From Berberis thunbergii (Eukaryota; Streptophyta; Magnoliopsida; Ranunculales; Berberidaceae), in the NCBI GenBank assembly GCA_003290165.1, contig QNQO01000593.1, forward strand, positions 248,001 to 312,000: a DNA stretch of 64,000 nt, in the 5' to 3' direction. The translations under genes were made by a program, and so were the position numbers. Below, one piece after another: positions 9,101-52,635 of this stretch. How positions within the stretch are numbered: position 1 is the stretch's first letter; every line of letters begins with the position of its first letter. Under the pieces are notes generated by a model. It worked only from the letters and a program-made list of their open reading frames with translations. It made no database searches and was not told the DNA's origin.

Positions 9101-12100
9101 AAGGGGAGGTCAGTCGAAACACAACCAAACAATTTTTATTTTCTTAATTTTGTACCTTTAACAAAGATTCAGAAGAAAAAGGCTGTACGGAGTTTATAAA
9201 CTACATATTGAAACTCAATTAGGCCCTTCTCAAAATTTTGGGCCCCTATGTAGTTTATTTGTTTAGGACCCACTAGTTGCAATTGAAATTGGAGGCTCAA
9301 GGCAAGGCTTTGGATGCTAGCCCCCACAGCCATCCCTGTGACATCAGGTTAATCAAATAATGAAGTCATCTATTTTAGTGCTTAAAATGAGGAACAAGCC
9401 TAGCAAAAATGATAAGTCCTTACGGAAACTGATTCAATAACTAGAAGAAATACAGTTACCTAGCAAGAAAAAATGAGGTGCCTAAGCAAAGAAATCTTAC
9501 AGCGTCTTTAAATGCAACAAAGGCTGCTTCTGGTAGGTAAGCATACGTTGTACCACTATCTAGGACACTCCCATGCTTCCCATCAAAGACCTGAGGGTTT
9601 AACTTCAATGGCTTTCCAGCGACGTGTATTTCCTTCAGCTCAATATTGTAATATGGGCTGTTGCCATCCCGAGACTAGAGTAAATGTGTGAGATTATCAA
9701 GTGTATTTATCTGAAATTTAAAGTTTTGACTTCCTTTGTGAGAAAAAAATTATCAAATCATACCTGCGACCAGAGTCTGAACGAGAAAAGACCATGTCAC
9801 GCAGAGGAGAAATTCCACCAAGAAACATTGCACCTCCACCAATGTCCATCCCACCATAGCACAGAGAAAAAGAATCACTGATAACACCCTTGCCAACAAG
9901 TTGGTCCATAATACTAAGCTTACCACGTCCCAAACCCATTATGCCATCAGCATGTTGACTGTAAAGATCACCAGTTTCCTCATTTTCACAACCAAAAACA
10001 GCGCGCTGGGGCTTAAGTGCACTTGCATTGCCAAAAGAAATAATGTCCTCACCAAGCACACCGCTACTAGAGCTCATCTCCGCGTATTGCCTCTCATAAG
10101 TACATTGTTTATTCTCACTGTCACAAGGGCAATCCATACTGCATTTTACTGGTTTGTAACTGCTTGACAAGTCTGGCTGGAATCTTGGATCCTACAAAAG
10201 AAAAATTATTATTTAACAAGAGACCAAAAAGGAGTATCCCCTGTGCAAAGACAATATAATCAATAAATCAATGATAAAAACTTCAAGGAAGAAAGATATC
10301 AAGCTAAATCAACAAATTGGTCTATCATGCTACTGAGAGTGCTTAGACACGCGAAATAAACTACAGAAGATTGGACTCATCATCTCAAGTATATAAATGA
10401 ATCTAAAGTGATCTGTAGCTACAAAGTATGGTTTTTTCGTTATAACTTTCACGTCAAAGCATTATTTTGACAATACTTTCAAACAAATAGTGCAATTATT
10501 CAACATAGTACCATCATAGTATGAAAACATGTTTTTTTTAGTTTTAATTTCATATATACATTACATTACATAAATTTATAACATCACACGTGTATTGTAA
10601 CACCCCGCTCTAGTACCACTGATACCACAAATGTGAGGTACCAACCGTCACACTCTTTGTCAGTTGAATCAGAAATGTTGCGGTGTTAGAAGAGTGCAAG
10701 TCCATGCTTAAAGATCTTCACTTGGACGGTTGCTTATGAGATGCACAACCATTCTTAGGCTAGGCGCCTTTCCAGCACACCACCACCCTCCTTTTCTTGG
10801 GAGTTCGGGGTGTCACAATGCCCCACCTTAAATGAGTTAATTCTAAGAGTGTGTTAGATTTATATGTTTTACTGAAAACCATAAAATAGGGAAAGAATAG
10901 TGAAGGGACGAGAGAAAAGGGGGGAGCATAGAACTTGTGACCTTCCACTACATATCTTCTCTCAAAGTAGAACTTATAAAAAAATCTCATGGAAAGGCAA
11001 GTCCAATATATCAAAAACTTGCCTTAGTGGAGTGAGACACAGGTTGGACTAAGGAATTAAGATTTAGTTCTGGCACCAAACTTGCTGCGGGGACAGCCGG
11101 ACAGTCAGACGGGCTCCTCAAGTAATCATGCCTTGCATTTATATTATTTGAAGACTAAAGAGTATCAAACCACATATTCAGGAAAAGCAACATCTGGGAA
11201 TATTATGGCAAAGAATATCAGTTGGGAAGAGCTCCACACAGTTGGCAAGTTGATGAGGTTCTATAATCCTACTACATTCTACATCCCAGTAAAGTATGGG
11301 TCTGGTCAAAGCCTAGCAAGTTCTCCACCCGTTCATTTTGTTAGCAGACCCAATCTCGCACTCATAATTAAGGTCTGAGGATTTTCCAAACCCAATCTAA
11401 AAGCAAGTACTCAAAATTAATGTCCAAGGATTTTCCAAAGACTACTCCCATGATCACCAAAATGGCATGTGAGAAGACTGATCTCAATCTAACAGAACCA
11501 CTTTCTAACTTTGATTGACGGTGGAGAGTTTCAAAGGCGTTATTCTGACACACCTCTTAGGGCTTTCAAGAGTAAGATATGGATGAACTCTACTACTTTC
11601 GAACTTGATCCTTTTACCACCAAATTAACCCAGAGTATTTGTAAGTAAATTGCTACTTCTGAATTGATTATGGATCTTACGCTTACTTATAAGAATAATC
11701 TACCATTGGGCTTCACTTGTTGAATTTTTAGATTGACAAAACAACGAAATCTATACCTACAAACAGGAACTTCAGCAAAGCTCTTATTGTTTCTGGAAGA
11801 CTAACAAATGTAAACTACCCAACAAACAGACCAAAGACAGACAAATACCAAAACCAAGTAATTGATATAAAATTTCATCAAACTCAAATTAACAATCACC
11901 TGGTGCCTGCCGCATTGTTCACAAGTCGAACATGGAACATAAGTCACAGTACTTCCTGAATCAACAATAAGCGCAAATTCTTGAGGAGGTGTTCCGATCC
12001 AAATCCTGGTTGTGTAATAACTGCAAAGATTGACAAGCCGAATTAAATTCAAACCAAAAAAACGCAAACCCAATCACCAAATTTCATAAAAAAAAACATA

Positions 12101-12404
12101 ACACCCAAACGAAGAACTGGATAGTTCAGACTCACCCATGGGAGAGAAGATCGTCGAAGAGTCTCATCCCTGCATTGGGGTGGCGTTGCTCTGCCTTCTT
12201 GAGCTGGCGACGGTAACTATCGTTGATTCGGCGAGACGAATTGGGGGTCGAGAGAATCAGAGGCAAAATCATCGATGGTGTTAGTTGACTGAGTACATGT
12301 TCTTGATTTCTGATCGAATTGGATGGAAAAAACTCCAGAAAAGTGAAGAACAGAAGTGCCGAAAGGCGAAGTCTTGACCTTTCGGCCATGCCTGGTTTGG
12401 GCAT
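143..12404 (-). CDS. Membrane-anchored A1 aspartic protease (12 exons)
   Basis: Exons, all minus: 12136-12404, 11900-12020, 9764-10191, 9501-9657, 7339-7421, 7143-7239, 6877-6949, 1672-1911, 996-1120, 739-840, 551-648 and 143-317. All joints are GT-AG and phases agree, giving 655 residues. Two catalytic aspartates are visible: DSGST near residue 110, after the conserved GTPPQ, and DSGTT near residue 306. A flap-region tyrosine and the cysteine-rich CSTCEQCGRHQ stretch are typical of plant atypical (nepenthesin-like) proteases. The N-terminus has a hydrophobic signal-like segment, and the last exon holds a membrane helix (MAVVLSVFVALALSL) followed by a basic tail, so the enzyme is expected to sit at a membrane of the secretory route. 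Two ATGs lie five codons apart (12404, 12389); the second gives the cleaner signal peptide. It resembles Arabidopsis At3g50050-type proteins from memory. The substrate is unknown. The gene is intact despite a large LTR-like insertion in intron 8 of the transcript order. Confidence 0.93.
1998..6540. mobile_element. Large solo-LTR-like insertion in a protease intron
   Basis: The segment starts TGTAACACCC and ends GGAGCGTGACA, the TG...CA form of LTR retrotransposon termini. It is flanked by CCAAG (1993-1997) and CTAAG (6541-6545), a 5-bp duplication with one mismatch. It lies entirely inside the intron between exons 6877-6949 and 1672-1911 of the aspartic protease. I see no gag, protease, integrase or reverse transcriptase frame, no second LTR and no obvious primer-binding site. 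At ~4.5 kb it would be a very long solo LTR of the size reported for some Ty3/Gypsy lineages, or an internally degenerate LARD-like element. Family is not determined. Confidence 0.62.
7996..8571. mobile_element. MITE-like element in a protease intron
   Basis: The segment is bounded by inverted termini AGTTAAAAC and GTTTTAACT and has AT-rich, TATAAC-rich subterminal sequence on both sides. It has no coding capacity and lies in the intron between exons 9501-9657 and 7339-7421. A short duplication (CTTAACATGGGTGAGCC, twice) occurs near 8027-8062. A target-site duplication was not clear. Superfamily unknown. Confidence 0.45.
10596..10817. mobile_element. Short LTR-like repeat (copy 1)
   Basis: The segment starts TGTAACACC and ends GGTGTCACA, giving LTR-like inverted ends over ~222 bp, with no coding capacity. 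A homologous copy sits at 38430-38649 inside the duplicated protease fragment, so it was present before that duplication. It may be a solo TRIM-type LTR. I see no reliable target duplication. Confidence 0.5.
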
Positions 12405-12509
12405 CAGAGAAGGATCTGTGAACAGGGGTTCAAGAGTTGAAAGAAGAAGAATCAAAGGGGGAGATTAGAATCTGAAATTGGAGATTGAAGAGAAAACAAA
12501 TCCCACTCT

Positions 12510-12540
12510 CTTCTTCTTCTTCTTCTTGAAACAGAGAGAA
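12510..12540 (-). repeat. Pyrimidine (CTT) repeat in protease leader
   Basis: A short CTT run lies about 110-130 bases upstream of the protease start, read here on the plus strand (GAA on the gene strand). It is probably in the 5' UTR or core promoter. Shorter in the duplicated copy near 40815. Confidence 0.5.
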
Positions 12541-12849
12541 CAGAAGACGAGAGAGAGAAACAGAGAAAGACCAGGTTGAAAGAAGCCAAATGAATGATTA
12601 TTTAGAACTGAAGCAAAGAGAGGAAATATAATTTTTGAGATTTGAGATTTGAGATTGGTTACGGAGATGGTGATTGATTGGCTTCTTCTTCCTATTCCTA
12701 TTTTTTGATTTGTTTGCTTTTGATTGACTCAAAGGGAGAGAGGGGTTCACGAGGGAAAGGGTCAAAGGGGCAATTTTGTAATTTTGTAATAATTCTTCGA
12801 TATTCTTTTGCAAACATCTCCCATGAGCAAGCTCAAAGTTTAATTAACG

Positions 12850-21700: not shown

Positions 21701-24700
21701 TAGTTCCAGCGAGGGTGGTTTCAGCGAGGGTGGTTTCAAACTGAAGGAGTAGTTTCAGCGAGGGTGGTTTCAGCGAGAGAGAGGGTGGTTTCAGTCAGAG
21801 AGAGTGGTTTCAGTGTGGTTTTCCTGTTGAAGGGTGGTTTGTGCTGAAAGTGGTTTTTTGACATTGAGATCTCAAGTGTGGTTTTGTTGAAGGGTGGTTT
21901 GTGCAGTGAGAGTGGTTTTTGTGCAGTGGTTTTGCACAGTGGATACTCAGATCTCGCAAGGTACATTACGGACTTGAGTAATTGCAGAAGACACTCAGAT
22001 CTCGCAGGGAGGAGGAGGATCTCGCAGGGAGGATGATCTCGCAGGAAGGAGGGATCTCGCAGTCGACAACATCTCACAGTGAAGATCTCGCAGTAAGATC
22101 CTACAGTTTTTCCTAATCTTTTTATTGCTCTGATGTCAGTATGCTTGTGGAATAGTATTTGTATGTTTGTTAATTTGTACTAATTCTTGGGAGAGATGGA
22201 GTTCAAAGAAGAAAATTTTCGTTTGTTGAAAATTGATGGGAAAGAATTTGGGATTCGAAAGTCAAGAGGAGGTTTGTTGTTACTTGAATCAAGCTCGAGG
22301 GTTAGAATCAAAGTTTTTGTCGAATTGCAGATGGGAAAATGGATTGAGTTTCAACTCAAGAAAGCCTTAGAATCAGGCTCTAATGGCTTCTCAGCCAGCT
22401 GGAAAATCAACAATAGATGGGTTATGATGGTGAAAGAGGCCAATATAGGAGGAATCTTCCTTTCTATTTTGGTGGGTTGGGGATCAGGGTCCAAAACTCT
22501 CAGGTTGCCAGCTGGCGCGGAAGGAACAGGCTGGAAACAATTCGCCCAAGCTTTGAATGCGATGACTCTAAATAAGGTGCCTAAGCCTTATCCTAAACAG
22601 CAAGTTAGCAGAGATGGGGTTTCAAATCTGCCAGGTTTTACTGTTGTCCCACCTTCGCGCAACAGATCATTTGTGGAGGTAGTGGCCACTAATCCCTCCC
22701 GTGTGAGCCCTACCCCGATTGCTGGTAAGGTTCCCATTGCAGCACCTTCCATTCATCGCGATTCTCCTATTGATTTCTTGTCCCAAGTATGGGGCAATCA
22801 GCTTCCTCCAGATTCCGTGGCAAGAAAGAATCTTGCAAGGTCACTGATAGAGTTGCCTGAGTCAGAGATTCAGTGGACACCTGTTGCTCTTCCGTTTGGA
22901 CGCACAGCTTTCTTGGTCTTCGCCAACTCTCCACACGTGTCCTCATGCGCAGCTTTCGACCCACCTCCTAGTATGCCGACAATGAAGGATCAGTCTCCCC
23001 CGCACTATTCAATGCTTCCCAATTCCCCGGCCTCTCGTGCCGCTTCAGCGGGTAAAGTTGGAAAACCTTTGTCTGAGTCAGTTCGCCCATCTGAGCAGAA
23101 TAAAGGCAAAGGTATTGTTGGGCCTTCACCCAACAAAGGACCTAAGTCTTTTTCGGCACAAAGCTTGGCTAATTCTAATAATCAACAGTCAGCTGGCAAT
23201 TATTGGAAGGTGTTAGAAGCGGTGGAAGAAGATGTCTTCAACCTGGATCCTCTTTTATCCAAAATGTCTAAGCAGGCCCACAGGGATCGAAACCTAGCAA
23301 AAAAGCACAGCGTGACAGAACCGCTGAATGGGCCAACTTTTCAGTCTTTCCTACCAGATCAAGGTTTATGCTTAAAAAGCGATCCAACAAATCAATCTCA
23401 ACCCACCAGGCAGGGCAGGGAGAACTTAAAGGTGGTAGTGCCCTTGCTGGACTAACAAGGGGAGAGCCTTCTAACCAGACCCAGGATGTTTCGGTTTCTT
23501 TACCTTACCCCCCCGGGTTCGAGCCACTAGCAGCTCTTTGTGTTGAAGCACATGATTTGTCTACAAATCCATGTGTTCCTCACGCGGAGAGTTTCTCATC
23601 TACCCCAGACCACGTTGGTGCCACTCCAGGTTTTGAGGTCCCACAGGATTCTGGCAAGTCTCCAATTTTTGTTTCTAGGGTCCATGACAGGGCGGAACCT
23701 TCTGTCTCTAACTGTCATGCGACTCATGAAGCAGCATCAGATCGTTCGGCTTTCAAAGACATTGGCTTCACAGTGGGAGTGGACCTCAATCAAAATGAAA
23801 ACAGGGCTTTAGATATGGTTCAAGCTGCAGCACAGGGTAGAATATCTGGCACAGCACTGGACCAATGCAACATATTCGGGTCTGAAGGTTTTACATGAAT
23901 CTTAAAATTCTTTCGTGGAACTGTAGGGGGCTCGGAAATCCTGAGCGGCAAAGGGGCTGTCGTAGATTAATTACAGAGAATCGTCCAGATCTTGTTTTCA
24001 TTCAGGAAACGAAATTGGAGAGATGCTCTAGAGAATTTATCAGAAAATTGTGGGGTGATAGTTCTTTTGACTGGGCTATGGTGGAATCCATTGGCAGCTC
24101 GGGCGGCATTTTAGCTATTTGGGACAATGATCTTTTGCAGATGAGGGAAATATTGAAAGGGATTTTTTCCCTTTCTATTCAATTCCAAATGATCTCGGAT
24201 AACTCAATTTGGTCAGGGACTAACATTTATGGTCCATGTGATCCTTCACTTAGAGACCACTTCTGGGAAGAACTTTATGACATTGCTGGTTGGGTGCAAT
24301 CTCCATGGGTGTTAGCCGGTGACTTCAATGTTGTCCGTCATATGAATGAAAAAAAGGATGCAGGAGGAGGTCCACGAGCATGCAGAAATTCAATCAATTC
24401 ATTAATGAGGTGGAACTCGCTGATTTCAGTCTTAAAGGGGGGAAATTCACATGGTCAAATCATAGAGATCTCCCTATCCTTTGTCGACTTGATCGATTTC
24501 TAGCCTCGGTGGATTGGATTGACAAATTTGGTGATAAAGTCGAATGGCTCAAAGGTGCAGCTGGTTCAGACCATCACGCGATTTTGCTTGCGAACTCATC
24601 TATTGCTGGTGGTACTCGCCTTTTTTCCTTTGATAACGGTTGGTTTGATCACCCTACCCTGGCAGAGGATATGAAAACTTGGTGGAACAACTCAGTAGTC

Positions 24701-27605
24701 TCTGGCCACCCTGGATACTGTTTATGGTGGAAGCTTAAGGCTCTCAGATGCAATCTCAAAAGCTGGCGGACTAAAGTTTGGGGTAAGACAAATCTATGTA
24801 TTCAAAATATCTCTGACTTAATTGCTATCATTGATGCGGATGAAGAGATTAGGGATTTGACTGTTGAAGAGAGGTCTTGTAGAGTGCAACTACAACAAGA
24901 GTGGGCAATATTAACCAAGAGAGATGATGAGTTTTGGAGAATCAGATCAGGAGTCAACTGGGTTCGTAATATGGATCAGGGGACTAAATTCTTTCATACA
25001 CTGGCTAACAGACGTAGACTGTTTAACTCCATTGAAGCTCTCAGCACGGGTCAGGAATTGGTAGTGGATGAAATCAGTATTAGAACACTCTTGATTTCTC
25101 ACTTCAAGAAGTTGTTCCATGAAAAGGAGGAGTGGCGACCTTTCTTCTCGGGGATTACCTTCAAGTCTATCTCTCAGTCTACAGCTACTGCCTTGGTAGA
25201 AAACTTTTCGGAGATGGAAATTAGAGCGGCAATGGAAGATCTAAAATCTGAAGTTTCCCCAGGTCTTGATGGTTTCTCAATGGTGTTCTATTTGAATATG
25301 TGGGAGGTAATCAAAAATGATTTTCTGAAAGTTGTTGCAGATTTTAACTCGAGAAACTTTCTCGATTGGCGGTTGAACACCACTATCATATCACTCATTC
25401 CTAAGTGTGCGGGAATGCGGACGGTAAATGATTTTAGACCTATCAGTATTTTGAATGGGGCCTATAAGATCATTGCCAAGGTGTTGGCTAACAGATTGAA
25501 AATAGTTCTTCATTCAGTCATTTCTCCTTTTCAAAGTGCAGCAGTCAGTGGAAGACAGGTGGTTGATAGCCCCTTGATTGCCAATGAAATTATTGATTCC
25601 AGAAAAAAACAGGGTGTTCCAGGGCTTGTTATCAAATTAGATTTCTCCAAAGCCTTTGACAATGTCTCTTGGAGATACTTGGATTTGGTAATGGCTCGCA
25701 TGGGGTTTGACTGCAAATGGATTCATTGGCTTCACACTTGCAGATCTACAGCAAATTTCTCTCTGAAAATTAATGGTCAACTGCACGGGTTTTTCAATAG
25801 CTCGAAAGGCCTTCGACAAGGCGATCCTCTATCTCCTCTTCTTTTACTATAGCAGCAGAAGGTTTAACCCAAATGATTCTTAAAGCGGTTGATGCTGGCC
25901 TAGTAAGAGGGTTTTCTGTCGCGGAGGGTAGTCCACCCGTCTCTATTCTCCAGTATGCGGATGATACTATCCTCTTTTGCGATGCGTCCGCTTCTCAGGT
26001 TCTGGCTCTTAAGAGAATTTTGCTTTGGTTCGAAGTTATTTCAGGACTGAAAATCAACTTCCACAAATCAAGGGTGTTGCCCATTGGAGATGTCCCTCAT
26101 TTGCACCAGTTGGCGGGTTTATTGGGTTGTTCAGCAGGTCACCTTCCAGTTAAGTACCTGGGCATGCCATTGGGGGCTAGTTTCAAAAGTAAAGCTGTGT
26201 GGGATGAGACGATCGAAAGGATGGAATCGAAACTAGCGTCTTGGAAACGCAAATTTCTCTCCAAAGCAGGCAGACTAGCTCTTGTCAAATCCACATTAGC
26301 ATCTATCCCGGTCTTCATGCTGTCTCTTATCAAGGTTCCCTGTTCCATAGCTGCCAAGATGGAACGGATCATGCGCGATTTTCTTTGGGGTTCTTCTCAT
26401 AACTCTAGAAAGATGCATTTAGTGGGCTGGGAGAAAATTTGTTGCCCTAAATCCCGAGGTGGTTTAGGCATTCGTCAGGTCCTCACTTTCAATATTGCAT
26501 TACTTTCTAAGTGGCTTTGGCGATTTGCAGATGAGAATGATAACTTATGGAGATCTCTCATCATGGACAAATATGGGCGCAATAGATGGGTTTGGGAAAA
26601 GAAAACTAAGTACACTTCCTTCGGCTGCTCTTTGTGGAAGTCTATCTCCCGGTGCGCAAGTGGCTTCTACCCTCACACCTCTCTCCAATGTGGAAATGGT
26701 GATCTCATCTCTTTCTGGCATGATGTTTGGTGTAGTAACCAATCTTTGAAGGATCTGTTTCCAAGGTTGTTTATCTTTAACAACAATCAATTTGGGAGTG
26801 TTAGCAGTTTTTGGTCTAACGACAACTCTTGGGACCTTTCCTTTCGCAGACACCTTAATACTGAGGAATTAGAGGAGTTCGCTAATCTTATGCATTTGTT
26901 GGGTAGACAAATACTCTCAGAGGGACCAGATAGTTTGGTGTGGAAGGGTAAAGGTGTGGGCTTCTCGGTTAAAGAATTTTCGGATATGTTGGCTACATCT
27001 CATTATGAGACCCACTCTAACCCCTTCATTACCTCCCACAAAAATCTGGTATGGGTGAAAAACCTTTTTCCTCGGATTAATTTCTTTAGTTGGTCAGTTT
27101 TGCACGAGAAGATATTGACTAAAGATAGGTTAAGGAAAATGGGAATCCTCACTGGGAGTCTTTGTGTGCTTTGCAATGAACTTGAAGAAACACTGGACCA
27201 TTTGATGCTTCATTGCAGTTTCTCCAAATCCATTTGGAGCAGTTTTTTGGTGGAATTCGGTTTGAGTTTGATGTTTGAAGGCTCCATTTTAGATTGGCTC
27301 AGTTGGTGGTCTCAAGCTAATCCTTCCCGTCGGGGGGAGTGGTTATGGCGTAGGGTCCCTCACGTTCTCATGTGGTCTGTGTGGAAAGAAAGAAATAAAA
27401 GGGTTTTTGAAGGACTACACAGATCGGAGCACTCTATCTTTATCGAGATTAGAGAATTGCTGTGGAGGATGGGTTCGGCATGTAATTTATTTAAGGATTT
27501 GGGGTTTGACACTTTTATAGTGTCTTGGCATTCCTTGATATAGGAATGTTTCTCGTTGTAATTTATTTCTCTTTCTTTCATTAATAAACAATTTCATGTT
27601 TGACC

Positions 27606-38340: not shown

Positions 38341-38429
38341 TCTAGGAAAAACAAAGGTCAAATAAACATGTTTTTTTAAGCTTTAATTTCATATATACAT
38401 TATATAAACTTATAACATCACACATATAT

Positions 38430-38649
38430 TGTAACACCCTGCTCTAGTACCACCAATACCACAAATGTGTGGTACCATCCATCACATTGTGTCAGTTGAA
38501 TTGGAAATGTTGTGTTGTTAGAAGAGTGCAAGTCCATGCTTATAGATCTTCACTTGGACGGTTGCTTCTAAGACGCACAACCATTCTTAAGCTAGGCACC
38601 TTTCCAACACACCACAACCCTCCTTTCCTTGAGAATTCGAGGTGTCACA
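38430..38649. mobile_element. Short LTR-like repeat (copy 2)
   Basis: Duplicate of 10596-10817 with the same TGTAAC start and GTGTCACA end. It shares flanks with copy 1, so it was copied as part of the segmental duplication. Confidence 0.5.
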
Positions 38650-38838
38650 ATGCCCCACCTTAAATGAGTTAGTTTTAAGAGTGTTAGATTTCTATTTTTT
38701 ACAAAAAACTTGTGCCTTCCACTACATATCTTCTCTCAGTAGAACTTATGGAAAATCTCATCAAGAGGCAAGTCCAATATATAAAGAACTTGCCTTAGTG
38801 GAGTGAGACAGATTGGCACCAAACTTGCTGCAGGACAG

Positions 38839-39435
38839 TCGTGTTACGTGCGGAAGCATTACAAATGCCGAAAGCCTGAAATGCGAAGTTAACAAACAAA
38901 TATCGGAGACAAACAATTTACGTGGTTCGACAAACTCGCCTACATCCACAACAAATAACAACTTTTATTGCTTCAGATTCAGATTACAAACACTCCGTAC
39001 AAATTTGTTTCCCGAAAGAAACCCAAACACAAAACCCGAACAATACCCCGACAAATAAGCAAATGAAAATCTAACACAAACTAATCCGATGTCGGATTTT
39101 CCAGAACTATTCCAAATACAAATGAGGTATCTCTCACAAACTGGAACTCACTGGGTGATAAACAAAGGGCTAATGGGGCTTCATTACTAAGGCCCCTCAA
39201 GGGTCCTTATATAAGCCCCTTGAGGAGGTGCAAGAGGCGACAAGAGCTTGATTCACAAGCTCATTGTTAGTTGTCCCAATGGCTGCAAAAAGGGCGGCAA
39301 ACAAACACTTCATACTTAATTTATGGATTGAGGAGGTGGAACCTTCCACCACCTCCTCCATTTTGCTTCATCACTAAACAAGTGAGGTGGCGGTGGAAGC
39401 TTCCACCAACTCACTACTTTCAACAAGTTGGACAG
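38839..39435. mobile_element. ~0.6 kb insertion private to duplicate copy 2
   Basis: Relative to copy 1 (near 11090-11120), this segment is extra. GGACAG flanks it on both sides (38833-38838 and 39430-39435). It begins near TGTTACGTGCGGAAGC and carries TTTACGTGGTTCGACAAACT, which I associate with widespread plant LTR-type repeats. It includes a probable TATA (TTATATAAG near 39209). It has no coding frame; solo LTR or TRIM is the best reading. Confidence 0.6.
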
Positions 39436-40220
39436 GCCCCTCAAGTAATCATGCCTTGCATTTATATTCTTTGAAGACTAAAGAGTATCAAACCATATAT
39501 TCAGGAAAAGCAACATCTGGGAATATTATGGCAAAGAATATCACTTGGGAAGAGCTCCACACAGCTGGCAAGTTGATGAGGTTCTACAATCCTACTACAT
39601 TCAACATCCAATAAAGTATGGGTCTGGTCAAAGCCTAGCAAGTTCTCCACCCATTCACTTTGTTAGCATATGACCCAATCTAGCACTCATAATTAAGGTC
39701 TGAGTATTTTTCAAACCCAATCTAGAAGCAATTATTCAAAATTAAGGTCCAAGGATTTTTCCAAAGTGTAGTCCCATGATCACCAAAATGGCGTGGAGAA
39801 GATTGATCTAAATCTTATAGAACCACTTTCTAACTTTGGTTGATGGTGGAGAGTTTCAAGGTGTTGTTCTGACTCAACGCTTAGGGCTTTCAAGAGTAAG
39901 ATACGGATGAACTCTACTACTTTCGAACTTGGTCCTTTTACCACCAAATGAACCCAGAGTATCTGTAGGTAAACGGCTACTTCTGGATTGATTATGAATA
40001 TTGCTTATAAGAATTAATCTACCATTGGGCTACGCTTGTTGAATTTTTAGATTGACAAAACGACGAAATGTATACCTACAGACAGTTACTACAGCAAAGC
40101 TCTAATTGTTTCTGCAAGAATAACAAACGTAAACTACCCAACAAGCAAACCAAAGACAGAGGCAACTACTAATACCAAGTAATTCACATAAAAATTCATC
40201 AAATTCAAATTAACCATCAC

Positions 40221-40705
40221 CTGGTGCCTGCCGCATTGTTCACAAATCGAACATGGAACATAAGTCACAGTACTTCCTGAATCAACAATATGGGCAAATT
40301 CTTGAGGAGGTGTTCCAATCCAAATCCGGGTTGTGTAATAACTGCAAAGATTGACAAACCGAATCAAATTCAAACCAAAAAAAAACGCAAACCCAATAAC
40401 CAAATTTCATAAAAAATAACACCCAAACGAAGAACTGGATAGTTCAGACTCGCCCATGGGAAAGGAGATCGTCGAAGAGTCTCATCTCTGCATTGGGGTG
40501 GCGTTGCTCTGACTTCTTGAGCTGGCGACGATAACTATCGTCTATTCGGCGAGACGAAATGGGGGTCGAGAGAATCAGAGGCAAAACCATCGATGGGGTT
40601 AGTTGACTGAGTACATGTTCTTGATTTCTGATCGAATTGGATGGAAGTGAATAGAAGTGCCGAAAGGCCAAGTCTTGACCTTTCGGCCATGCCTGGTTTG
40701 GGCAT
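40221..40705 (-). pseudogene. Duplicated aspartic protease fragment (exons 1-2)
   Basis: Exon-1 relic 40454-40705 and exon-2 relic 40221-40341 match exons 1 and 2 of the protease at 11900-12404. The relic keeps IWIGTPPQEFA and the first catalytic DSGST, but a 17-nt deletion near 40645 shifts exon 1 out of frame, and the exon 1 donor reads GC where copy 1 has GT. Downstream exons, including the second catalytic aspartate, are absent. It cannot encode a protease. Confidence 0.88.
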
Positions 40706-40869
40706 CAGAGAAGGATCTGTGAAGATGGGTTCAAGAGTTGAAGAAGAAGGATCAAAGGGGGAGATTAGAATCTGAAATTGGAGATTGGAGAGAAAACAAA
40801 TCCCACTCTCTTCTCCTTCTTCTTGAGACGGAGAGAACAGAGGACGAGATAGAGAATGAGAATGGGAAT

Positions 40870-41552: not shown

Positions 41553-44500
41553 TCAGCCCTCTCTCTTCCTTTTCCCTCGTCTATCACAGAACACATTGGT
41601 AAGAACCTTTCCCGATGTCATTGCAGCCTGGAGAATAGCCAAAGCCTGCATGAAAGTTCAACAAACAGACATGATTAGAAGTAGGATACAACTTTTTTAT
41701 TTATCAAAAAATACTGGTTAACTCATGCACAAACATGTTTACTTTCGCGCAAGTATATATATATATAACAAATCAAGTTGTATTTCATACACATTAACTT
41801 CCCCTTCATAACTACATAAATATCTCATTACTAGGCACATAGTATTAAGATGATTTTTTTTTTCTTTACATTTATTTTTCACTATAACATTTAGGCATGA
41901 CCAACAAAAGTGAATGTCTTGAAAATTTGCCATGTGTCAGAGAAACCATCTGCAAACTTAATCTCTTTCTAACATGAAATAAAACAGAAATAAACTTTGA
42001 GATTCGGTTAACTACATTAATTTAACTTACATTTATTTAACATAATTAGTATAAACATCTAACAAAACCACAAAAAGTTAAAGAGAGTTGTTAACTTACT
42101 TCATATCCCCCAACACTGACAACCTCTTCTTTCAAATCGCTTTGAGGCACACCCAAATGAAAAATGTCATCTTCTGTCAACCTATCGACAAGCATGGTAG
42201 TACGACTGACAATGGAAATGCTACATCTTGGTTTTACCAACAATTCATCTGTCACTACGTAAGTAAATGCATCCTTCACATATCCACTTCCAGTTTCTGC
42301 AAATCTACGTGCATACCTAAAATTCTTGATCGAGCCCCTTTCAGGGGTTATAGTTGCAGCCTCTTTATGAACCTGTAACAACTGATTCTTGATTCCCCAT
42401 AGAAAGGAAAGCTTTGGGTTGAGCAGAAGATCCAAATAGTGTTCTTCCATGTTGCTGTTGTCTATAAACAAACATTGCACGGACTCGTAGAAATTATCTA
42501 AACTTCCTATAGAAGTACTTCCACCAAAGAGTTTTATTATGGATCCTAAAGGAAAGGTTAGGAAACTGAACAAGAGGTTCACAAAGTCTGCATTAGCTAA
42601 TGCATATACAACCTTGTTCTTGGATTTCTTTACAAAAAGCTTCAACCTCAAATTCTTTGAATGATCTAAAGATGTTTGAGACTTAATCATTTTCTTCACC
42701 TGATCCAACTGCTCAGATGTCTCCATCAAGTCCTCATTTCGTAAAAACACATCAGTCATCGGTGTCTTAGAGAGAAACAAACGATTGAGTAACTGTAACA
42801 ACTGTTTGAATCAAAAATGTAATGAAGATCAGGTGATGCTTATAATAATAAAAAATACATAAATAAATATGATGGATTTCAGAGAAGTTATTAAAAAAAA
42901 AAAAAAGTTCTATCGATCACATTTACTGTGTTTGATTATGCAAAAAATGCAGTTCAGGAATTAATGAGTGGTTACTTGTACTAATTATTCACAGTCAGAG
43001 TCTGTGTTGCAGTGCCAACACTGAAAACAGTATGCCAATTATACATGACAACAAAAATCGGTTTTCAAATAAATAAATAAACATGAGTCCAATGGCACTT
43101 GCTCCTTTTCTGTGTAACCAAACATGCCCTAATAGAAACAACAAACAAAGTGAAAAGGTGATATAGCAACTAACAATAAGACCAACTCGGTTAGAAAAAA
43201 AGAGAATAATAAAGAAAACCATGGATGTTCTTATATCTTATTATCCCCATTCATAATGATGAGTGAACCTAGTTGAGTGTAACTTCTGAGAATTGTGCCC
43301 TAATTCTATCTAACAACAACATGTGCATGGTTCTTGGTGTCAGAAATACAATATACTGATATAGGATTTATCACTTTTTTCATAATAAATTTAATATTAT
43401 GTCACATTCTTTCAAAAATCAATATTGTTACATATGTACTACTAACTTACCAGTTACCATAATACATTTGCAACATTTTAAAATTTGGAAAGATATGTAA
43501 AAGTGTTGATGATCTATGCAAGGAGTGTCAAGGTGTTTGGGTGTTGGACTGTCCAAATATCTGTCCAATACATGAAAGTTGGAAATTTTTTGAAAATAAA
43601 GTGTCGTGGTTACATAGATCATATCCTTGTTGATATGAAGTACACGAGAATCATATCAAATGTAACAAAATCGCAACTGTTTGGTGTCAATAATTTGCAA
43701 GAGCAAGGCCATATAATGTACACCATTTTGAGCTGCTTCCCATCCTTCGAAATACAAAGCTTCAATGATGAGTCCCAAGCTAAAAGCGGATATGGAGATT
43801 GGAGAACATAACACAAACTATGAAGAAAAGGATGTTTTCCATTCTACAACGGATGACCTGAATATCACGGGGGATCAATCGAAATGTAGTTTCATGTAGA
43901 AACAGAAAGTCACCCAAAGTTTGATACTATAGCTTGGTAAGGAACGTTGCTGGTTGTGGGCTTGAAGTGTGTCGAGTTTTTGGCTGAGTAAGAATCTTAA
44001 TGGCGAGGAAGGCGGGTTCAATCACCACTTGGATGTTTGGACTATGCTGAATGGGTCATTGTAGGTCACTCCTTTTAAGCTCACTGGATCTTAGTTGTCT
44101 TGTTGTTGGTCTAGGCTGGATGTATAAGAAAGTTTAAGTTTCCGGTGAAGGCTCATCCTCTTCATGCATTAACTCGAGATACCTGTTTGGGGACTCCACA
44201 CCTTTGGGTGCGCACTCTAGGAGGATTTCCTTCAATCAGGGGATCCATAGGGCTAAGATCGTGATGTTAAACCTGAAGTTGGTGAAGAATGGTGTTATTT
44301 AGAGCGCGAATTTGGCATGTCAACAGCTGAGTCTGATTCTAAGAAAGCAATTATTGGTGAGGAAAAGGATACAAAGTCCAAGCAATATAGTTGTTCAACA
44401 AACCTAGACTTCTAGGATTGAAGACAAAAGGGAATACGGGTAAATTGCTTGCTTCTCCTATAGAGAGTTTTTGGCAGGAAAGCAGACAAAAGGAGATTGG

Positions 44501-45540
44501 TCGCAATGTCGTTTCTTAAACGTAAGTTGTCTCCTTAAGAAGCACCTGCGCTTCCTTCCAATCGGTCACATTTTCAATAAAATCTGGACCAAAAAAATAT
44601 CTTGGGTAGGGTTGTAACAACAGGCCAATTTGAAACACAGAAAAAGAACACAAAACAAAAGTTTATTTTTTGGTACTTACCTACAAAAATCACTGTCCTA
44701 TTCAAGGGTTATGATTCTCCTAAGCTGAGAGAGTGTGTGACCTAAAAATGTCTGAATTGAATGAACAAATAAAAAACAAGAGCTTGAAAACCTTCCTTGA
44801 CTGTTTTGATCATATGGTAGCGCTACAAAGCAAGGGAATAGAAACTTAAATAAAAATTGAAGTTACGAGAGAGAGAACAAAAGTAATGGTGACTTACAAT
44901 ATCCCTATCAACCGTGAAAGTCCTATATTCAGTAACTTCGGAGTCATTGCCAAGCTGTGAAGAATCATCTGTATTTAACATTGTCACCTTCAAATCATCA
45001 GTGATCACAAACCTTGTCATTCCTTTTACAAACTCTCCAGGAGAGCTAACAGACTTCATGTCAGTATACCTCTGCATACTCCTTCCGCAATAACAGCATA
45101 ATGTCCGAGAGACCACCGCAATGTAAACACACTCTTTTTTTACAAGAGGGACATACATAATACTCTCCAGCCTCGTGTTCAATTCTGTGGGGATGATTAA
45201 TCAATTTCAATTCAGCAAGCAGTTCCTTCTTGGGTTTGAGCAACATAGACTTCCATGCCTCATGGTAAAAAAACTTTTCGCTGAGATTCTGTACACTCTG
45301 ATACAATGTGTCCATGCAACCAATATCTGATTGCTTCTCCGATTCGCTTATGATAGTGCCCATAGGCAACAAGAGAAAGCTCAGGATAGCATCAACAAAA
45401 TCTGAACCCGCCTGGCAGTGGATGACTCGATTTTTCTCCTTGTCAACTACAACCTTCACTTTGATGCACTTGTCTTCCGATGTGTTCATTGTGACATGAT
45501 TATCATCAATTGAATTACTTATATTGGTATCATCCATCAT
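41553..45540 (-). CDS. DUF674 family protein, one apparent frameshift
   Basis: Exons, minus: 44898-45540, 42100-42801 and 41553-41645, with GT-AG splice sites in phase 0; ~478 residues when one extra base is discounted. The protein has the duplicated DUF674 layout: an N-terminal half (IKVKVVVDKEKNRVIHCQAG, FVDAILSFLLLPMGTI, then a Cys-pair region and GEFVKGMTRFVITDDLKV) and a C-terminal half repeating it (LRLKLFVKKSKNKVVYALAN, FVNLLFSFLTFPLGSI, GYVKDAFTYVVTDELLV). The start is the first of two adjacent ATGs. In exon 1 the frame breaks at a run of seven A (complement of ~45138-45144); with six, CKKECVYIAVVSRTLCCYC reads on into the next frame and matches the family. DUF674 is plant-specific and of unknown function. 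Intron 1 is 2.1 kb. Confidence 0.85.
42802..44897. other. DUF674 intron 1 with unexplained insert
   Basis: The left third is ordinary AT-rich intron. From roughly 43840 to 44580 base composition becomes more balanced, with scattered broken frames on both strands, suggesting an old insertion. I could not assign a family. Confidence 0.4.
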
Positions 45541-47544
45541 CACGAGGTTCAAAAAAGGGGTTTAAATTAAGATTGTTCACTGTAAGTGGTAACAAGAGAA
45601 ATCATTAAAAATGAGAAAACCCTTTGATCTAAACTCTCACTTAACGGAACCCAAACAATCAAAATCAATGATTTCATACATATAAACATAAAGTTGGGGT
45701 TTTTATACTCTTATCTCAAAAAAAAAAAAAAAAAAAAGGTAGAAGAAGCACAAGCAGAGACAATTGTTACCTGATAAGTTAGACACAGAAAGACACGTTT
45801 GGAATTCTTGAAGATGATCCAAGCTGGTAGGAGATGTTGCCAATAGAAGAAGAAGAAGAAGCGCCCAAGCAGCAATCTTTGCGGGAAAAAACCTAAAAAA
45901 CGCAATTTTTATAAGAGTGCTCCCCGGATATGGGTCGGGTTTTAGGTGCCGCCGATAAAAACACCCACAATATAGTATTATAGGCACCACCATTCTTCCA
46001 TTAATCCAAGCCCATTGGCGGTCCAAAATATTTGTGACTCAATCGTCTTACAACAATTCTAGGTAGTCAAGCCAGCTAGCCATTTTTTATCTGAACTGTG
46101 CCATTTTTATAAAAATGCTTTTTCACAATCCTGACCAAAAAATGATCGGCTAGCCTGGCTACTTAGCAAAATTGATCATCTTAACATGATCCAACTACTC
46201 AAATGACACCATCGAATCCAAAAATACCATAAAATTCATGGATTTCTTTATTTTTATTTAAGGTTGGTTGAGAGGATATTTGGTCGGAAAAATAAAATTT
46301 TGTCTAGCAACTATTTTTCGAGAGAAATTTTGTTGAGCTCACCCCTAGAAAATATTGCTTGAGGGTGAGTTAAGCAAAATTTTCACAAAATCAGTGGGAA
46401 ATACGCACACTAGAAAAAATTTCAGGTACAAATTTTCAACCAAACATCGAAAAAAAATTTCTTTTTCAATCAACCAAACACTTCAAAATTAAATTTTCCA
46501 TGCAACCAACACAGAAAAAAAAAAAATTTGATATTGATGCACATATTCATTCCAAAAATATTATTAATCATCTTGATACAAAATCACCACTTCCACCGCA
46601 AACACGTATTTAGACATGGTTATGGGGATTTCGTTCTGCGAGGAGCAGACAGTCTGGACTTATGTTCAAAACATACTTCCCAAATTTAGGTGCCAAATTT
46701 CTAAATGCTCCCACTAACCCACCTCTAAGCATCTACATACTTACTATTTTTTTTAGCAATAATATTATGTTATGATTATCTTTATATGTCATCTTTATTT
46801 TATTGAGTCAATGAGAAAAAGTTTTTTGCTTCTTTGCTATTTTTCCATCTTTAGAGTTTGTTTAGGCAGCCAGGCTTTAAAGTCATTTTTTTTCAGACTT
46901 CGACTTTTTTTATAGTTTTACTCATTCTCTTTAAAACACAACCACAGACATTATATATATAGAAAGAATAGAAGTGTAAAAAGTTCAAAATCTGACCAAA
47001 AGTTGTTATAAAGCCTGATTGCCTAGAATTATGGTCATCTTTAACATTTTACAAAATGTTAACATGTTATCTCCTAAAATACATGTGATTAGTTTGTTCC
47101 AATTGACTTGACGGTTTCAGTCAAATTGGGGATCATAGTGAAACGACCAACACCCAAAGTTATATTATTTGTTGTCATTTGGCTTGATTTTCATTAATAC
47201 AAAATAGTCACAAGACACATGTAAAAGCGTAATATGGAAAATATATATAATAATAATAATTAATTAATTAATTAATTAATAATAATGAACATGTACAAAA
47301 CGAATAACATGAGGGTTTTTTTTTCTTCGTGTGTGTACAAATTTGATTGTGCATTATCTTTCCACAATGTGAGATATTTGATTCTTTTTATGGAGACTAT
47401 GGGTGAATGCACTCTATGAACACGTATATTAAGTACTTTATTTTATTTTAACAACTCGATAAGTGCACGATTATCTATTGAGTTAGATAACAACAAGTAT
47501 GAGTCGAATTTTGTATTATACACAAAGTACACGTAATGAGGGCA
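45541..47544. other. Intergenic region left of the inverted element
   Basis: Includes a 20-A run (45719-45738) in the DUF674 leader region. No gene recognised. The sequence up to ~46050 is probable DUF674 promoter. Confidence 0.4.
47254..47283. repeat. TAA/TTAA microsatellite
   Basis: TAATAATAATAATTAATTAA-type simple repeat of about 40 bases. Confidence 0.8.
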
Positions 47545-47553
47545 TTCTATTTA

Positions 47554-50041
47554 GAGCAATTCTAGATGTCGAGGGTTTGGGCGAGGTTTTGGGCGAGGGA
47601 TGGTGGGGCGCGCGTGTAGGAGGTGACGTGGTCAAAAAAAAAAAGGGGGGGGGGGTGGAAATCGAAATTTTGGGGGAGAAGAAGGAGGGAATCACAGAGC
47701 TTAAGCCTTCTTCTCCCCATTCCATTTCAATCCTCCCCATTTTCTTCCTCTCCTCTCCCCATTTTCCATCTCTCGACAGGTCTCCTCCTCCCCTCTCCCC
47801 CAAACGGCGAAGCTCTCCCTCTCCACCTTCTCCCCATCATCGTCATCGACTCAAACGAAGGAGAAGAGAAGAAGGTCAAACGAAGCCAAAGAAGAAGAAG
47901 GAGAAGAGAAGAAGCTCCCTCGCAAAAGGTAAACCCTGACTTAATTTTCCCTCTCATTTTAGGTTTTTTGGTTTTAGGTTTTTTGATTTTTGATTTTCCC
48001 TTTACTTGCCTGTTTTAGGTTTTTGGTTTTGGACAAGAAGTTGGTGGGCAATCTGGTTTTCATCGCTCGGACGCAGAGGTAAGATTTCGGGCTCCATTTG
48101 TTCTTCTTTCGTTTCGTCTTCAGATCAGAGCTTCAATTTTTTGGGTTTGGGTTGGGTTTCAAATGTGATGAGCTTCTGTTTGGATTATTTCATGTATAGG
48201 GATGGAGAGGTTACCTTTCAGATCAGAGGGCTACAAATTTTGGACATGGCGAGGCCATAAGATTCACTACGTCGAACAAGGATAAGGAGTTCCAATTGTT
48301 CTTATTCATGGGTTTGGAGCTTCTGCATTTCATTGGAGGTTTGTATGTTCTTGTCCATTTTGGTTGTGTCATCAAGTTCATCAATATGTTACAAGACTTT
48401 GGAGTAGAATAATTTTACTCCAATAATTTGTTTTTCTTCATTTTGGTTCCTGATTCCTCATGATGGAATAAGTAATGAACCTTACTTGTATATCAATTTC
48501 TTTTGTTTATTTACTTTTATATATAATACTTATGGAAAATGTTGGGTTGGGTGTTATGTGATTAGACGACAGAAGTCTGAATATGACAAATGAATCTGAA
48601 ATTAACAAGATTCATACAAACGGTGTTGAAATAGCATGAGGAAAAAGCTTTGGACCTTTGGCAAGCTCCCAAATATTTTGAATTGAGATGGAAACAAAAA
48701 TTTGAGATAATGTTCTAAGAGGATACCTATAAAGTCGATGTTGGTTATGTTTGGGTCTCTCCTGTATCCCAAAGTTATTTGCATAACCCGTTGGTAAAAA
48801 CATAAGCTTATTTTTACTGTGAAGTTCAAAGTTCCACTGGAATTTGGTTCATATATTTTTTTGGATGATTTGACACAGTTAGGACAGAATTATTGTAGCA
48901 AATTTGATTTGGATATTCAATTGAAATAACTCAGGCTGAGGCGGAGAGTGTTGTGGTTTTCATTAATCCTAAGAGCATCCACAGTAAGCTCATGGATGTG
49001 GCAAAACATGTTATCATTGAATAAACCAATTCATGGATTCTTATGACAAATTTAAAAGCTCTTATTCTTTGAGCACTAACTCTATCTTTCTTATTGCATT
49101 CTTGAAACATGGCAACACAGATGAAAAATATACTCGGGAAATTATCGGTCAGGCTAGTTTTCTTTGGCTTTTATTCTTTTTGAAATGGATTTTGTCAAAT
49201 GAACAGATACAACACACCAGAGTTGGCTAAAAGTTACAAAGTTTATGCTGTGGATTTGTTGGGGTTCGGCTGGAGTGAGAAAGCACTAATCGACTATGAT
49301 GCCATGGATACTATGTGGGGTTGATGGATGATAAGAGGAATAGTGATTTGGTTTTCGAATAGATGTTTGGAGAGGAGAATAGAATGGGTTGTGATGTTAT
49401 TGCCATTAGTGGATTCAACGAGCTTATTGATCTTCATTTGTTCTCTCATTGCAAGGTGAGCTTTCTTTAGATTTCATAATCTTTTCATTAGTTGGTCATA
49501 TTACATGCACATAAAACATATATATACACTTTAGTTAATATTATACTAAATGACCTCACCCTCAATGAGTATATTTAGTACAGATATCTATATCCATTCG
49601 ACAAATTTAATAGGCTCACAAATGACCTCTAGATCACCACATGTACAGTTTGGTCCCCATTGAGTTCAACATAAATGTTAATTTGCCCATACTTTCTCTT
49701 TTCTATACTAAATATGCTTTACTTGCCATTTTTGGTCCAGGAGATTTATATGGTGAGCAGAACTGACAAGAGGAGCTGGAGCTACCTACCAAAAGAGAGA
49801 TACCCAAAGCCATTAATCTTCCATGATGGAAGATTGACCATCAAACCAACCCCACTTACCACTTTGGCCATCTTCATTTGGGTGCCTTTTGGTTTCTTTC
49901 TTGCCATTATCAGAGCCATTGTTGCCTTAACATTTCCTTACAAGATTGCTTGTCCTCTCTTGACTTTGCTGGGGTTGAGACTTAGAGGAACAAAACACAT
50001 TTCTCCAACTTCAAACACAAATGGCACAAAGTGCACAAAAG
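47554..50041 (+). repeat. Left arm of the large inverted repeat
   Basis: Arm of 2,488 bp. Order: terminus and A/G runs, pyrimidine-rich leader exon (to donor at 47928), hydrolase fragment, acyltransferase fragment. The reverse complement recurs as the right arm. Confidence 0.93.
48200..49300 (+). pseudogene. Captured CLD1-like alpha/beta hydrolase fragment (left arm)
   Basis: Exon 48200-48338 starts at ATG 48202 and reads MERLPFRSEGYKFWTWRGHK and then VPIVLIHGFGASAFHWR, the oxyanion-hole region of an alpha/beta hydrolase. After an intron of ~870 bp, exon 49207-~49300 continues YNTPELAKSYKVYAVDLLGFGWSEK in two steps. This resembles chlorophyll dephytylase 1 (At5g38520) from memory. An in-frame TAA (48283-48285) interrupts it, and the catalytic serine and histidine regions are absent. 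A leader exon ending at 47928 probably comes from the same donor. Introns are retained, so capture was from DNA. Confidence 0.8.
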
Positions 50042-50136
50042 GAGTCCTCTATGTGTGCAACCATAGAACCCTTTTAGACCCATTATACCTCTCTGCCATA
50101 CTTGGCGGCACACCCATCACTGCAGTGACTTATAGT
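49362..50136 (+). pseudogene. Captured GPAT2/3-like acyltransferase fragment (left arm plus loop)
   Basis: Exon ~49362-49455 reads AISGFNELIDLHLFSHCK, then an intron to 49740, then EIYMVSRTDKRSW, YPKPLIFHDGRLTIKPTPLT, hydrophobic segments (IFIWVPFGFFLAIIRAIVAL) and VLYVCNHRTLLDPLY. The last contains acyltransferase block I (H-x4-D). This is the middle of a plant sn-glycerol-3-phosphate acyltransferase, closest from memory to the GPAT2/3 group. The fragment runs 95 bp beyond the left arm into the loop, so block I is present once only. The N-terminal phosphatase-like region and blocks II-IV are missing, so it is not a functional enzyme gene. Confidence 0.85.
50042..50136 (+). other. 95-bp loop of the inverted repeat
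   Basis: The only single-copy part of the element. It encodes the continuation of the GPAT fragment (VLYVCNHRTLLDPLYLSAIL) and ends at AVTYSL, where the inverted arm begins. Confidence 0.85.
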
Positions 50137-50816
50137 CTTTTGTGCACTTTGTGCCATTTGTGTTTGAAGTTGGAGAAATGTGTTTTGTTCCTCTAAGTCT
50201 CAACCCCAGCAAAGTCAAGAGAGGACAAGCAATCTTGTAAGGAAATGTTAAGGCAACAATGGCTCTGATAATGGCAAGAAAGAAACCAAAAGGCACCCAA
50301 ATGAAGATGGCCAAAGTGGTAAGTGGGGTTGGTTTGATGGTCAATCTTCCATCATGGAAGATTAATGGCTTTGGGTATCTCTCTTTTGGTAGGTAGCTCC
50401 AGCTCCTCTTGTCAGTTCTGCTCACCATATAAATCTCCTGGACCAAAAATGGCAAGTAAAGCATATTTAGTATAGAAAAGAGAAAGTATGGGCAAATTAA
50501 CATTTATGTTGAACTCAATGGGGACCAAACTGTACATGTGGTGATCTAGAGGTCATTTGTGAGCCTATTAAATTTGTCGAATGGATATAGATATCTGTAC
50601 TAAATATACTCATTGAGGGTGAGGTCATTTAGTATAATATTAACTAAAGTGTATATATATGTTTTATGTGCATGTAATATGACCAACTAATGAAAAGATT
50701 ATGAAATCTAAAGAAAGCTCACCTTGCAATGAGAGAACAAATGAAGATCAATAAGCTCGTTGAATCCACTAATGGCAATAACATCACAACCCATTCTATT
50801 CTCCTCTCCAAACATC
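50137..50816 (-). pseudogene. Captured GPAT-like fragment (right arm mirror)
   Basis: Mirror of the left-arm fragment: exon 50137-50437 and exon ~50723-50816 on the minus strand. It ends at NTNGTKCTK, before block I, because the loop sequence follows instead. Confidence 0.82.
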
Positions 50817-50877
50817 TATTCGAAAACCAAATCACTATTCCTCTTATCATCCATCAACCCCACATAGTATCCATGGC

Positions 50878-51979
50878 ATCATAGTCGATTAGTGCTTTCT
50901 CACTCCAGCCGAACCCCAACAAATCCACAGCATAAACTTTGTAACTTTTAGCCAACTCTGGTGTGTTGTATCTGTTCATTTGACAAAATCCATTTCAAAA
51001 AGAATAAAAGCCAAAGAAAACTAGCCTGACCGATAATTTCCCGAGTATATTTTCATCTGTGTTGCCATGTTTCAAGAATGCAATAAGAAAGATAGAGTTA
51101 GTGCTCAAAGAATAAGAGCTTTTAAATTTGTCATAAGAATCCATGAATTGGTTTATTCAATGATAACATGTTTTGCCACATCCATGAGCTTACTGTGGAT
51201 GCTCTTAGGATTAATGAAAACCACAACACTCTCCGCCTCAGCCTGAGTTATTTCAATTGAATATCCAAATCAAATTTGCTACAATAATTCTGTCCTAACT
51301 GTGTCAAATCATCCAAAAAAATATATGAACCAAATTCCAGTGGAACTTTGAACTTCACAGTAAAAATAAGCTTATGTTTTTACCAACGGGTTATGCAAAT
51401 AACTTTGGGATACAGGAGAGACCCAAACATAACCAACATCGACTTTATAGGTATCCTCTTAGAACATTATCTCAAATTTTTGTTTCCATCTCAATTCAAA
51501 ATATTTGGGAGCTTGCCAAAGGTCCAAAGCTTTTTCCTCATGCTATTTCAACACCGTTTGTATGAATCTTGTTAATTTCAGATTCATTTGTCATATTCAG
51601 ACTTCTGTCGTCTAATCACATAACACCCAACCCAACATTTTCCATAAGTATTATATATAAAAGTAAATAAACAAAAGAAATTGATATACAAGTAAGGTTC
51701 ATTACTTATTCCATCATGAGGAATCAGGAACCAAAATGAAGAAAAACAAATTATTGGAGTAAAATTATTCTACTCCAAAGTCTTGTAACATATTGATGAA
51801 CTTGATGACACAACCAAAATGGACAAGAACATACAAACCTCCAATGAAATGCAGAAGCTCCAAACCCATGAATAAGAACAATTGGAACTCCTTATCCTTG
51901 TTCGACGTAGTGAATCTTATGGCCTCGCCATGTCCAAAATTTGTAGCCCTCTGATCTGAAAGGTAACCTCTCCATCCCT
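50878..51979 (-). pseudogene. Captured CLD1-like hydrolase fragment (right arm mirror)
   Basis: Mirror of 48200-49300 on the minus strand, with the same in-frame stop (near 51894). Sharing the stop shows that it predates the inverted duplication or that the arms have been homogenised. Confidence 0.78.
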
Positions 51980-52635
51980 ATACATGAAATAATCCAAACA
52001 GAAGCTCATCACATTTGAAACCCAACCCAAACCCAAAAAATTGAAGCTCTGATCTGAAGACGAAACGAAAGAAGAACAAATGGAGCCCGAAATCTTACCT
52101 CTGCGTCCGAGCGATGAAAACCAGATTGCCCACCAACTTCTTGTCCAAAACCAAAAACCTAAAACAGGCAAGTAAAGGGAAAATCAAAAATCAAAAAACC
52201 TAAAACCAAAAAACCTAAAATGAGAGGGAAAATTAAGTCAGGGTTTACCTTTTGCGAGGGAGCTTCTTCTCTTCTCCTTCTTCTTCTTTGGCTTCGTTTG
52301 ACCTTCTTCTCTTCTCCTTCGTTTGAGTCGATGACGATGATGGGGAGAAGGTGGAGAGGGAGAGCTTCGCCGTTTGGGGGAGAGGGGAGGAGGAGACCTG
52401 TCGAGATATGGAAAATGGGGAGAGGGAGAGGAAGAAAATGGGGAGGATTGAAAATGGAATGGGGAGAAGAAGGCTTAAGCTCTGTGATTCCCTCCTTCTT
52501 CTCCCCCAAAATTTCGATTTCCCCCCCCCCCCTTTTTTTTTTTTTTGACCACGTCACCTCCTACACGCGCGCCCCACCATCCCTCGCCCAAAACCTCGCC
52601 CAAACCCTCGACATCTAGAATTGCTCTTCTATTTA

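Follow-up and report, generated by a model that had tools for sequence, protein, structure and literature searches.

Structure of the palindromic element

The 64,000-nucleotide stretch of Berberis thunbergii DNA analysed here (positions 248,001 to 312,000 of contig QNQO01000593.1, C593; the window) contains a 5,073-bp element at positions 47554-52626, composed of two inverted arms around a short loop. Each arm carries pieces of two host genes, coding for an alpha/beta-hydrolase and a glycerol-3-phosphate acyltransferase (GPAT). Coordinates are window positions, and relatives and alleles of the element were searched for in the plant's own 2.24-Gb assembly. The following features were identified in and next to the element:

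47545-47553: target site duplication (TSD), left copy, TTCTATTTA; identical to the right copy and present once in the empty site
47554-50041, plus strand: left arm, 2,488 bp (arm alignment)
47554-49436, plus strand: stretch matching the ~1.88-kb terminal inverted repeat (TIR) of the 8-kb relatives (arm positions 1-1883)
48200-48338, plus strand: alpha/beta-hydrolase exon (pheophytinase/CLD1-like) with a nonsense TAA at 48283-48285 (protein matches, relatives)
49207-49307, plus strand: alpha/beta-hydrolase exon, ending at the GPAT junction (protein matches, relatives)
49305-49455, plus strand: GPAT exon piece; its TAG at 49360-49362 is also found in 7/7 relatives compared (relatives, donor comparison)
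49741-50138, plus strand: GPAT exon piece that spans the loop and ends at the putative fold-back junction (protein matches, relatives, donor comparison)
50042-50136, plus strand: loop, 95 bp of single-copy GPAT sequence (colinear with relatives)
50136-50137, no strand: putative fold-back junction with a 2-bp CT inverted microhomology (comparison with 13 of 14 loci)
50137-50437 (C593:298137-298437), minus strand: inverted copy of GPAT exon piece 49741-50041 (arm alignment, GPAT exon search)
50723-50873, minus strand: inverted copy of GPAT exon piece 49305-49455 (mirrored by hand from the arm alignment)
50871-50971, minus strand: inverted copy of hydrolase exon 49207-49307 (mirrored by hand from the arm alignment)
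51839-51977, minus strand: inverted copy of hydrolase exon 48200-48338 (mirrored by hand from the arm alignment)
50137-52626, minus strand: right arm, 2,490 bp, inverted copy of the left arm (arm alignment)
52627-52635: TSD, right copy, TTCTATTTA; 9 bp, the same letters as the left copy

The first-pass annotation, made from the letters of the window, had described exact 9-bp flanking duplications, inverted ends, arms of 2,488 and 2,490 bp and a 95-bp loop, with pieces of two unrelated genes joined in each arm. The whole architecture was recovered base for base. The arms were 99.68% identical, with two mismatches and five gap openings, and contained exact inverted matches of 1,376 and 917 bp, the longest such match in 20 Markov-1 resamplings of the window being 15-20 bases. 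A likeness between the two flanks of the element was rejected, as the 500-bp flanks matched each other, directly or inverted, no better than shuffled controls. No Rfam family reached its gathering score in the window.

Captured gene fragments

The assignments to a hydrolase and an acyltransferase were upheld by protein searches, with 371 matches for the hydrolase and 188 for the acyltransferase. The two left-arm hydrolase exons comprise 79 codons and gave hits to the Pfam families PF00561 and PF12697. Their 371 matches were of plant type, and the best 120 of these showed 80-90% identity, many of them being proteins of about 370 aa annotated as 'pheophytinase, chloroplastic'. The hydrolase family is presumably CLD1, the name used in the first-pass annotation. 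Mean identity of the captured piece to the best 120 proteins (0.853) was close to that of these proteins among themselves (0.858), and, the stop codon aside, the piece departed from them at one of 46 near-invariant columns (mean of 0.27 and maximum of 2 for single orthologs). The GPAT piece, labelled GPAT2/3-like in the first-pass annotation, matched glycerol-3-phosphate acyltransferases and departed at one of 25 near-invariant columns (orthologs' mean of 0.34, for 119 of the best 120 of 188 matches). It scored below the cut-off of Pfam PF01553 and had no relatives in PDB at E 0.001.

The exon borders in the left arm fit splice sites, which argues for the capture of genomic DNA. No Pfam transposase domain was detected in 10 of the 28 listed open reading frames (ORFs) of the element, the arms of which mirror each other, nor in 10 of the 18 listed interior ORFs of the relative L013, in a scan that was not very sensitive, as it also missed a GPAT stretch of L013. 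Captured host-gene fragments, with no transposase gene detected in the ORFs scanned, are the features of Pack-MULEs, the gene-capturing Mutator-like elements (MULEs).

A multicopy family of parent-type elements

The outer arm had at least 42 matches in the assembly, two of them being the window itself; the number is a lower bound because the best 40 of 3,655 candidates were scored. Of these loci, 27 stretches were examined, and the family has members of about 6.8 kb and 8.0-8.2 kb. In the six two-ended 8-kb elements (L009, L010, L013-L016) the inverted ends reached arm position ~1883 and were 96.7-98.9% identical, compared with 99.68% for the window arms, and in the five two-ended 6.8-kb elements (L017-L021) they reached ~1754. 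GPAT sequence beyond the TIR was present on one side only in 11/11 two-ended members (6/6 of the 8-kb and 5/5 of the 6.8-kb class). Duplications of 9 bp were recognised by eye at the following relatives:

L010: ATTGTATTT
L009/L013: CTTATGTAT
L015/L016: TTGATTCAT
L017/L018: TATGCAAAA
L020/L021: AAGAAACAA

On the same inspection by eye, no clear 9-bp duplication was seen at L011/L012, L014 and L019, and the loci other than those checked for TSDs were not seen with both ends. The inverted repeat of L014 extends past the TIR into the flanks (374-8850), which are 89% alike in inverted orientation over 200 bases, and L014 looks as if it sat inside another inverted element. L035 holds a more distant element (1123-7442) that resembles the arm only in part; its inverted ends are about 1.4 kb long and 92.6% identical, and no TSD was seen at the ends found.

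The non-GPAT side continued in the hydrolase gene in L017 and L020, the two inspected out of five 6.8-kb elements. In L009, L010 and L013, the three inspected out of six 8-kb elements, this side crossed the junction between hydrolase and GPAT and ran about 130 bp into GPAT before other sequence followed. Inverted identity extended to arm position ~1754 in the 6.8-kb class, ~1883 in the 8-kb class and 2488 in the window. We read this as stepwise growth of the TIR, probably with the GPAT side as the source that was copied. By these comparisons, the window palindrome is a single-copy derivative, in this assembly, of an existing multicopy Pack-MULE family.

A search of the assembly with the GPAT exon, in which all 30 candidates were scored, returned 31 match rows. 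The window accounted for two of them, and 19 full copies and one split copy (C400) were found at 98-99% identity; the copies on C10396, C5510, C65 (1454853), C10584, C5505 and C1590 were classed as element copies by identity alone, and some copies are allelic pairs. Among the 21 places at 98% or more, the window alone had a second, inverted GPAT copy close by, the two copies on C65 lying about 147 kb apart. The lower rows comprised two matches at 94% (C5590, known from this match alone, and C71), another three with 70% identity and three that were 50 bases long. In L037, a stretch of 2,001 bases of C71, the GPAT exon frames were open to a stop over the downstream part examined, and alignment with the arm gave identities of 93.6% (454 bp) and 91% (177 bp). 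The genome search for the donor GPAT gene that had been proposed with the first-pass annotation yielded a likely donor, about 94% identical and with open frames where examined, and L037 is taken as the presumptive one.

Insertion into an empty site

The left flank of the element had one full-length second match, at C8462:248192-249244 and 98% identity, the others being short pieces (best 40 of 3,312 candidates). In L036, the corresponding stretch from C8462, the left flank led through a single TTCTATTTA directly into the right flank, the element being absent, and 796 of 801 columns matched the joined flanks of the window. Seven pairs of relatives also have common flanks, and many loci are thus represented in the assembly by both haplotypes. 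C8462 probably represents the other haplotype's allele and not a duplicate, and the palindrome seems to be heterozygous, present on one of two chromosome copies. The 9-bp TSD, seen both in the window and at the empty site, and the long TIRs are those of a MULE. Together with the multicopy family with its 9-bp TSDs, these data support a precise Mutator-type insertion at a clean empty site, in line with the Mutator-type mobility proposed initially.

Proposed fold-back junction and timing

At the edge of the loop, 13 of 14 loci read TATAGT followed by CTAAGT, and the window reads TATAGT followed by CTTTTG; L010 gave no match to the pattern. Substitutions private to the window were counted against seven GPAT sides (L009-L011, L013-L016) in gap-free columns where the seven agree, 82 polymorphic columns being set aside. 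Nine were common to both arms, including the hydrolase TAA at 48283, one was confined to the left arm, one to the right arm and one to the loop. With nine shared and two arm-specific substitutions, most private change would predate the folding, unless conversion spread it. The count supports a recent folding, as had been supposed from the near-identity of the arms. The element shows a central inverted duplication with both ends derived from one side, the latter because the arms are near-identical and share private substitutions. The outer 476 bp of the arms bear no shared private mark.

The element is best explained as a nonautonomous Pack-MULE turned into a palindrome by fold-back copying, to which we assign a probability of about 0.7; the origin and structure of the palindrome as proposed are held to be probable. 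A break in a copy of the 8-kb type may have been repaired from a strand end within its GPAT part that turned back on its own strand, used the CT/AG match as primer and replicated the arm outwards to the TIR. The remaining interior would have been lost, and the 95-bp spacer would have stayed single-copy. In human, inverted duplications formed by fold-back are described that have a single-copy spacer and 2-8 bp of inverted microhomology (PMC3907307).

Hairpin potential and likely targets

RNA starting from either end is predicted to read sense-first and to fold into a long stem. In one modelled spliced RNA, the splice sites and ends of which were guessed, 1,027 of 1,028 sense-exon bases paired with the antisense arm. 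Of the 2,468 21-mers of the arm, each of eight loci of relatives contained 1,466-2,100 (59-85%) as exact matches and the eight together contained 2,212, whereas 90 of 412 GPAT-exon 21-mers (22%) occurred exactly in L037. Given this difference, the element's own family would be a likelier target of small interfering RNAs (siRNAs) than the GPAT donor; such siRNAs, if made, would match the family best and the GPAT donor in part. That the hairpin really produces siRNAs is regarded as possible, with the odds leaning against it.

Alternative explanations

Several points weigh against the fold-back reading. The human spacers, of 766-70,466 bp, are longer than 95 bp, and 134 of 1,000 simulated junctions had at least 2 bp of microhomology by chance (both PMC3907307); gene conversion between the arms would also yield shared private substitutions, and the palindrome is known from the assembly consensus, not from reads. 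Furthermore, six of the seven arm differences lie within the outer 217 bp and are largely run-length changes, possibly sequencing errors. This clustering had raised the idea of an older right TIR persisting in the outer 217 bp of the right arm, which was rejected by comparison with the relatives: by eye, one T, one C and the C/A difference at 47770 were each private to one window arm, and the remaining outer differences lay within an A/G run. The clustering would also suit an assembly or library artefact, as would the uniqueness of the palindrome among the 21 places with the GPAT exon; in that case an ordinary 8-kb element would be inserted here, and TIR homology would have led to the joining of a fold-back read to the right end. 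We consider this improbable, since a chance read error would need to dominate the assembly consensus and the arms differ at seven sites, though sequencing errors could account for part of these; a precise insertion is consistent with the dissimilar flanks, the TSD and the empty site, which would however suit an 8-kb element too. Another alternative is folding in place, after an 8-kb-type element had landed, so that the palindrome as such never moved. Its single-copy state in the assembly agrees with this course of events, which the TSD would outlast. The insertion is younger than the contig split (5 of 801 columns differ), barring precise excision at the empty site, and therefore both insertion and folding would have to fall within that time; folding in place is rated only slightly below an even chance.

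A further question is whether the folded element acts on other loci. It could be an inert palindromic transposon, the fold-back being real and the locus silent or self-methylating via 24-nt RNAs, with other loci unaffected. A full hairpin transcript is made less probable by the absence of a TATA-like word (TATAWA) from the left arm's outer 647 bp, as well as by plus-strand AATAAA words at 49020 (in the left arm), 51003 and 51666. The captured frames are broken, and the modest sharing of GPAT 21-mers with the presumptive donor also speaks for inertness. The long hairpin proposed for Mu killer of maize is itself disputed, silencing plants having expressed two short antisense transcripts according to PMC3440606. 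On the other hand, arms of 2.49 kb with a 95-nt loop would, once transcribed, be a strong source of double-stranded RNA. Transcription of Pack-MULE interiors from TIR promoters is reported (PMC3310237), and for Brassica napus it is proposed that Helitrons with captured genes and the donor genes interact through siRNA crosstalk (PMC11986588). Inertness comes close to being an even bet. The full scenario, a stepwise birth of a hairpin silencer in which the TIR copies ever more captured sequence until a palindrome results and ends as a new heterozygous trans-silencer of its own Pack-MULE family, also hitting the GPAT donor and perhaps the hydrolase donor, is judged unlikely.

Few cases are known that reveal the origins of new hairpin RNA loci or of first transposon-silencing triggers. 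In the present case a single assembly contains elements of the parental type, a likely donor of the GPAT piece, the empty counterpart and the folded copy, and silencing of family members or donor genes by a newly folded Pack-MULE could be assessed directly between siblings with and without it.

Neighbourhood of the element

Directly to the left of the element, on the minus strand (42091-45561), three open frames contain DUF674 domains. For a MYB exon nearby, the most similar proteins were those of Coptis, Macleaya, Olea and Papaver (38-55% identity), a weak pointer to Ranunculales. Open frames resembling a LINE-type retrotransposon, one with a reverse transcriptase domain, were found at 22184-27543. 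The regions 10525-12559 and 38364-40856 are direct repeats about 28 kb apart, with pieces 88-91% identical and a similar open frame in each. Two inverted repeat pairs, 35684-38366/63004-63998 and 12857-13549/57574-58183, show 78-87% identity and are perhaps older transposons.

Comparison with known systems

The closest known system in shape is Mu killer of maize, an internally deleted Mutator element with both TIRs from the same end and a central inverted duplication, for which silencing and a proposed hairpin of about 4 kb are reported (PMC3440606). Mu killer duplicates transposase (mudrA) sequence, whereas the window arms consist of TIR and captured host-gene pieces, and no duplicated transposase sequence was found in the element ORFs scanned. 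Long TIRs, a 9-bp TSD, gene fragments with introns and two donor genes per element are shared with Pack-MULEs; in rice, 5-10% of MULE-derived putative genes have two parents (PMC4858842). Its 8-kb and 6.8-kb relatives have the ordinary Pack-MULE form, whereas the window element is palindromic over nearly its whole length and retains almost no unique interior. No palindromic Pack-MULE was found in the PMC open literature, at the level of titles and abstract openings, among the matches listed. The foldback-type Mutator element Tm1 of root-knot nematodes also has long inverted repeats of variable length and a 9-bp TSD, but its TIRs are described as composites of several motifs (PMC3169594), whereas the window arms are mostly a gene-derived single sequence. 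Inverted host-gene fragments with the gene persisting elsewhere are likewise a feature of the inverted-duplication model for new small-RNA loci (PMC10004981) and of the inverted ARR17 fragments of Populus euphratica, where the host gene remains elsewhere (PMC9636151). Unlike these, the window presents two genes captured on a DNA transposon that is apparently heterozygous and has its parent family still present.

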